Assembly (NCBI GenBank): GCA_027079305.1
Contig: JALWVU010000001.1
Location: forward strand, 1-64,000
DNA: 64,000 nucleotides
From: Aquificaceae bacterium
GTDB taxonomy: Bacteria > Aquificota > Aquificia > Aquificales > Aquificaceae
Reading direction: 5' to 3'
Translations under genes and position numbers: made by a program
Notes under the pieces: model-generated
The model's database searches: none
Seen by the model: only the letters and a program-made list of their open reading frames with translations
Told to the model about the DNA's origin: nothing
In this document: piece after piece, positions 42,155 to 43,848 of the stretch
Numbering within the stretch: the first letter of the stretch is position 1
Layout of the letters: each line of letters begins with the position of its first letter

Positions 42155-42213
42155 AGTGCCCCCTCTTCCCAGCTTTCACAGTAATGCTATTTCAGCATAC
42201 ACGGAGGGGACTA

Positions 42214-42984
42214 ATGTCTGCAAACGTAGAAGCAAAGGCTATCTACGAGGACGAGAACCACAGGTTTATCTGGCTCGGCTGGGAGGAGGATGAGGACGAG
42301 GGTCTCGTCCAGACCAACCAGTACCTGATCATCAACGACGGGGTTGGCGTTCTGCTCGATCCCGGGGGTGCCCATGTCTTCCCGAGGGTGGTGGCCGAGA
42401 CCGCCCGCTTCATAGCTCTGGACAGGATCAGATTCATCTTCTACTCCCACCAGGATCCGGACGTGAGCTCGGGCCTCCCCCTCTGGCTTGCGGTAACACC
42501 GGCAAAGGTCTACATCTCCAAGCTCTGGATCAGGTTCGTCCCCCACTTCGGAAGAGCTGACATAAGCAGGGTAGAGCCCATAGAGGACCACGGGGGGAGC
42601 ATAGATCTGCCCACAGGGGACAGGCTCGAGTTCATCCCCGCCCACTACCTCCACAGCGTAGGCAACTTCTCCGTATACGATCAGAGGTCGGGGATCCTCT
42701 TTTCGGGGGACATAGGGGCCTCCGCCTTCCCGCCGGGGAAAAGATACCTTTTCGTGGAGGACTTCGACTCCCACGTGAAGTTCATGGAGGGCTTCCACAG
42801 AAGGTATATGAAGAGCAACAGAATTCTAAGAAAGTGGGTCCAGCTGGTGAGAGAGAAAAGACCGAAAATTATAGCCCCCCAGCACGGAGCCATATTCGAC
42901 GAGAGGACCGTAGAGAGATTCCTCTCCTGGCTCGAGAGCTTAAAGTGTGGTGAGGATCTTATAGATCAGATCTACGGGAGGTAA
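42214..42984 (+). CDS. ODP/FprA-like diiron metallo-beta-lactamase-fold protein (probable O2/Fe sensor)
   Basis: 256 residues from ATG 42214 (SD GGAGGGG). Diiron ligand candidates in order: SHQDPDVSSGLPLWL (HxDxD instead of the usual HxExD), AHYLHSVGNFSVYD, LFSGDIGASAF and APQHGAIF. There is no flavodoxin domain, so unlike FprA it is not a full flavodiiron reductase. Stand-alone ODP proteins act as oxygen or iron sensors for chemotaxis in Treponema denticola. The next gene, 6 nt away, is a soluble chemoreceptor, which supports the same job here. Confidence 0.82.
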   Translation: MSANVEAKAIYEDENHRFIWLGWEEDEDEGLVQTNQYLIINDGVGVLLDPGGAHVFPRVVAETARFIALDRIRFIFYSHQDPDVSSGLPLWLAVTPAKVYISKLWIRFVPHFGRADISRVEPIEDHGGSIDLPTGDRLEFIPAHYLHSVGNFSVYDQRSGILFSGDIGASAFPPGKRYLFVEDFDSHVKFMEGFHRRYMKSNRILRKWVQLVREKRPKIIAPQHGAIFDERTVERFLSWLESLKCGEDLIDQIYGR

Positions 42985-42990
42985 TTAAAG

Positions 42991-43848
42991 GTGTTCTTCA
43001 GGCTCAGGAGGAATAACCCGAAAAAAGAAGAAAAGCCATACATATACGAGGCGGTAAAGCCCATCTCGGACGAGCTGATAAACTGCTACGACAGGGTCGC
43101 CATCTTAGAGAGGTCCGAGAAGCTCCTGAGGGATCTCGTTATAAAGAGCAAGGAGGGGATAGGTGGCATCTCCACCGCCCTCGAGGAGTTCTCTTCCACC
43201 CTGAACATGCTCAACTCGAACGTGGGCTCCCTGAGCAAGGATGTCTCGGGAATGAAGGAGGAGATAGCCAAAAGGCACGAGCGGTTCGAGGAGAAGCTCT
43301 CCCAGATTCTCGAGAAGGTCAGGATAGTGGAGAGGCTCATAGAGAGTGTTAGGAGTTTCCAGAGCATAGCTGAGAAGGTCATATACATGGTCGGGGGTAT
43401 ATCCAGCATAGCGGAGCAGACGGGTATGCTGGCCCTGAACGCCACCATAGAGGCCGCCAGGGCAGGTGAGCACGGGAAGGGCTTCTCGGTAGTTGCGGAG
43501 GAGATAGGCAGGCTCGCCTCCAAGACCGAGTCCTTCACCAAGGAGATACAGGAGCTTATGGGAGAGTTCATAAAGAGCCTGAACGCCATGGAGGAGAACA
43601 TAGAAAGCATAAGGGATCTGGTGATGGAGATAGCCAGAGACATGGAGGAGGTGAAGGAGTTTCTGGGTTACGTTAGAAATTTCTCAGACAAGGTGAACTC
43701 TTCCATCAGCGAGGTGGCCAGTGCTGTGGACGAGCAGGCCCAGGTGATAAGGGGGATAGAGCAAAGCGTATCCTCCCTCAACTCTGAGCTGGAGACCATC
43801 TTAGGCATGGTGGATGCCCTCTCGCATATAAACGAAAACTTCAGGTAG
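42991..43848 (+). CDS. Soluble methyl-accepting chemotaxis-type receptor without a sensor domain
   Basis: 285 residues, all helical, no membrane segment. The receptor tip is clear: [20 protein letters not shown] and [20 protein letters not shown], flanked by coiled-coil arms. The N-terminal 60 residues hold no known sensor domain. GTG 42991 start. Cotranscribed with the ODP-like protein, which probably supplies the input. It should bind CheA/CheW, encoded elsewhere. It is convergent with ftsY. Confidence 0.9.

Follow-up and report, generated by a model that had tools for sequence, protein, structure and literature searches.

The window, a stretch of 64,000 nucleotides from an Aquificaceae bacterium (assembly GCA_027079305.1, contig JALWVU010000001.1, positions 1 to 64,000), carries two adjacent open reading frames on its forward strand. 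The first (42214-42984, + strand) starts with ATG and encodes a predicted oxygen-binding di-iron protein (ODP) of 256 aa with a metallo-β-lactamase fold and no flavodoxin domain. The second (42991-43848, + strand) starts with GTG and encodes an MCP of 285 aa, a cytoplasmic signaling hairpin without an input domain. The gene order and the spacing of exactly 6 nt reported by the first-pass annotation were both recovered in our reading of the frames. A Shine-Dalgarno-like GGAGGGG (42203-42209, + strand) lies 5' of the ODP gene, and that of the receptor gene, GGGAGGT (42976-42982, + strand), sits within the last codons of the ODP gene, which suggests that translation of the two genes is likely coupled. 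A thioredoxin-like gene lies 59 nt upstream of the ODP gene on the same strand, and the receptor gene is followed by a converging gene that we take, by eye, to be ftsY. A scan for promoters and terminators returned no signal above chance.

Profile searches place the first protein in the ODP family. It matches Pfam ODP (PF19583) over profile positions 1-194 of 194 with 253.4 bits (cut-off 27.2; E = 2e-75), compared with 75 bits for the generic Lactamase_B profile. These are its only Pfam domains; no flavodoxin domain is matched and the protein stops after the metallo-β-lactamase domain, such that it does not have the fused flavodoxin and diiron domains of a flavodiiron protein. The nearest solved structures are the ODPs of Treponema denticola (6qnm, E = 8.9e-100, 57% identity) and Thermotoga maritima (6qrq, E = 1.7e-96, 55% identity), followed by flavodiiron proteins at E = 3.5e-06 and approximately 25% identity. 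An AlphaFold2 model of the protein (pLDDT 91) gives the same ranking, with all ten ODP chains first (TM 0.87-0.93) and flavodiiron proteins after them at approximately 0.7. The titles of the matched ODP entries name a chemotaxis sensor ODP, and that of 6r9n a peroxy di-iron species. The proposal of a flavodoxin-less, ODP-like metallo-β-lactamase protein is thus borne out by Pfam, PDB identity and the model, and, judged by sequence and predicted fold, the protein is a true ODP rather than merely ODP-like. No relative was found in viral contigs.

All of the metal-ligand motifs named in the first-pass annotation are present: SHQDPD (H79, D81, D83), YLHSVGN (H147), SGDIGA (D166), and PQHG (Q223, H224). 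The putative ligands comprise H79-Q-D81-P-D83 (42448-42462, + strand), H147 (YLHS; 42652-42654, + strand), D166, a putative bridging ligand (42709-42711, + strand), and the Q223-H224 pair (42880-42885, + strand). Residues H79, Q80, D81, D83, H147, D166, Q223, and H224 are unchanged in 26 of 26 aligned ODPs, and the window protein therefore carries the full ODP-family ligand set of HxDxD, His, Asp, and QH with its extra Gln. A superfamily study reports that glutamine replaces histidine at motif 5 of the T. maritima ODP (PMC7785958), and by alignment Q223 fits this glutamine ligand. The T. maritima protein shares the full set of ligands, with a Gln preceding the final His. The earlier suggestion that Asp replaces the usual Glu holds insofar as Asp81 occupies the position of a Glu in flavodiiron proteins (HTEPD in 4dik, HQDPD in ODPs), but it is no local peculiarity. 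All 26 ODPs, the two with solved structures among them, carry HQDPD, so Asp81 is a feature of the family, and we reject it as a special trait of the window protein. Sequence cannot discriminate between iron and zinc in this site, and 6qwo is a zinc-reconstituted form of the T. maritima ODP.

The receptor matches MCPsignal (PF00015, E = 1.6e-32); its remaining Pfam matches are weak and mostly to coiled-coil models, and neither an input domain nor a HAMP domain was matched. Its predicted structure consists solely of two helices (17-157 and 159-284) folded into an antiparallel hairpin, with low confidence in the first 15 residues only. Because PF00015 is found without an input domain and the model has only two helices, the description of a sensor-less soluble receptor is confirmed, and the ODP gene adjoins an MCP without a transmembrane or sensing module. 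Among receptors paired with an ODP, strong conservation is confined to the 39-residue hairpin tip (43399-43515, + strand), the expected CheA/CheW contact region. Outside the tip divergence is fast, and the window receptor is 18-29% identical to all receptors in the alignment except its nearest relatives; consequently, the ODP contact site could not be located. The solved structures searched include no ODP-receptor complex.

To assess conservation of the pair across Aquificae, as proposed in the first-pass annotation, we examined gene order around related ODPs, and the outcome was positive. An MCP frame adjoins the ODP on the same strand in 77 of the 80 closest relatives drawn from named genomes, usually within 20 nt of it and 275-300 aa long. 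The three exceptions comprise a 289 aa frame and a 166 aa frame, each without an MCP profile match, and a locus with no such frame. These loci come from Aquificota, Thermotogota, Spirochaetota, Nitrospirota, Synergistota, and other phyla, and were picked by ODP similarity alone, a choice that is blind to MCP pairing but favors the nearest clade. Of the 20 Aquificota loci initially retrieved for close homologues, 14 are also paired, and three close relatives within the phylum (G016, G011, and G021) keep the pair at the same site beside ftsY. A receptor-only search of Aquificota matched mostly ordinary MCPs and was used for adjacency alone. In a tree of 120 ODPs, whose backbone is poorly resolved, the window protein sits in a wholly MCP-paired set of seven rows (support 100/100), while 6qnm falls beside Treponema putidum and 6qrq among Thermotogota, whose ODPs likewise have MCP partners. 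Together, the profile scores and the conserved pairing exclude a chance origin of the pair. The design is not an unusual one, being the common arrangement in close ODP relatives of several phyla.

The 2.0 Mb genome (75 contigs) also encodes a CheA/CheW system and flagella. Three CheW domains lie in one cluster on contig 55, in CheW, in CheV (CheW plus receiver), and in a putative CheA, a 628 aa frame assigned from the CheW domain that it contains; two CheR and two flagellin-type matches are found elsewhere. The same cluster includes CheZ and a protoglobin-MCP-CZB receptor (L018:7606-9606), likely a second oxygen sensor for the same CheA. Given this receptor, the ODP-MCP pair may be secondary in aerotaxis. 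Across Aquificota, CheW is present in 17 of 17 genomes with a close ODP orthologue (at least 57% identity), a co-occurrence with a chance of approximately 3e-4 under independence of the genomes, an assumption that does not hold. The single-contig genome G057 gave no match to CheW or MCP; its MCP-type ODP is broken by a frame change and the loss of its middle part (L077:5600-6256), and no receptor adjoins it; here the sensor has decayed where chemotaxis genes are absent. In another genome (L080:16-4302, G030:C70), an ODP gene truncated at the edge of the contig immediately precedes CheW-CheV-CheA, an order that directly links ODP with core chemotaxis genes.

The arrangement has precedents. Muok et al. 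(2019) reportedly described the ODP-MCP module, its operon layout, and its sensing of oxygen and Fe(II). That work also catalogued operons that combine ODP and MCP genes in either of two orders, a result that the TREND paper (PMC7319448) derived anew. In T. denticola, the receptor TDE2496 is without transmembrane or sensing modules yet modulates CheA, with ODP (TDE2498) as the chemotaxis oxygen sensor (PMC7666581), and the ODP-receptor interaction depends on conformation (PMC6978683). The window pair resembles this system (6qnm, 6r9n) in its flavodoxin-less ODP with the same ligands and in its partner MCP without transmembrane and sensing modules, so that the original comparison with T. denticola was right and, by sequence, model, and gene order, is stronger than claimed. 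It differs in the receptor sequence outside the hairpin tip, and T. denticola has an F2-type chemotaxis system with a special CheW-CheR-like protein (PMC7666581). From T. maritima (6qrq, apo; 6qwo, zinc) it differs in host and receptor sequence. Flavodiiron proteins (T. maritima TM0755, 1vme/4dik; ROO; flavorubredoxin) share the fold and a similar position of the di-metal site; unlike ODPs, they carry a flavodoxin domain and are enzymes rather than sensors.

On this basis, the two genes very probably form an ODP-MCP sensor module that feeds the CheA system and senses O2, possibly also Fe(II). By orthology with the T. denticola and T. maritima proteins, ODP would load two Fe(II), bind O2 as a peroxo di-iron species, change conformation, and bind a dedicated soluble receptor without a sensor of its own. 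The receptor would join the chemosensory array and, bound by ODP, would shift CheA activity and hence flagellar behavior, with O2 and possibly Fe(II) as the cue.

The same ODP-receptor coupling could serve a different physiological ligand, such as labile Fe(II), nitric oxide, or another small oxidant. Flavodiiron relatives of ODP reduce NO, and the che cluster already holds the protoglobin receptor. A title cited in later papers calls the T. denticola ODP an Fe(II) and oxygen sensor. Nonetheless, the ligand set is the same as in ODPs that trap an O2-derived peroxo species, and we consider a ligand other than O2 improbable. Even less credit can be given to the idea that ODP scavenges O2 or NO enzymatically while the receptor is uninvolved or responds to another signal. 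Flavodiiron proteins are enzymes of this kind and ODP paralogues without an MCP occur in this genome and phylum, but the pair has neither a flavodoxin domain nor an adjacent electron donor gene, nearly all close relatives keep the pairing, and the relative without chemotaxis genes carries a disrupted copy. That the first protein is a zinc metallo-hydrolase and a mere neighbor of the receptor gene is scarcely credible despite its fold and the zinc reconstitution possible for the T. maritima ODP, as a generic zinc hydrolase is rejected on the profile scores (253 against 75 bits) and the gene context, with closest PDB matches to ODPs and then flavodiiron proteins and an MCP neighbor kept across several phyla.

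This genome encodes further ODP-related proteins. A second ODP (L017:7113-7910), 47% identical to the window ODP and with all ligands, has no MCP partner and stands first in an ODP-SCO1/SenC-PCuAC-redoxin group (L017:7113-9372; contig 55, about 551,100-553,400), of which a near-copy exists (L016:24-2249); the SCO1/SenC-PCuAC genes are a group for copper delivery to cytochrome oxidase. The second ODP belongs to a separate clade of unpaired ODPs (support 100/99) that is also represented in Aquificota for which neither CheW nor MCP was matched, and its role is therefore probably unrelated to chemotaxis, with oxidase assembly or an oxygen response as possibilities. A 554 aa protein (L021:4021-5685, contig 73) combines, by eye, a receiver-like N-terminus with an ODP-like domain that has lost HQDPD and the other ligand residues, and is possibly a metal-free signaling relative of ODP.

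The window pair is thus, by its sequence, a typical representative of a two-gene module that is already known, and it extends this oxygen/iron sensor to the Aquificaceae; by analogy, it most likely allows the bacterium to direct its motility in response to oxygen or iron. The gene neighborhood presents ODP-MCP as a stable module in several phyla, disrupted in a relative that lacks chemotaxis genes. There is a slim chance that the pair has been retuned in this lineage, where in an aerobic or microaerobic autotroph it could serve low-oxygen attraction or report iron or NO alongside the protoglobin receptor, in which case two chemically different gas sensors would act on one CheA array. The unpaired paralogue is more interesting than the pair itself, and a version of the pair from this heat-loving group could aid in solving the ODP-receptor complex.
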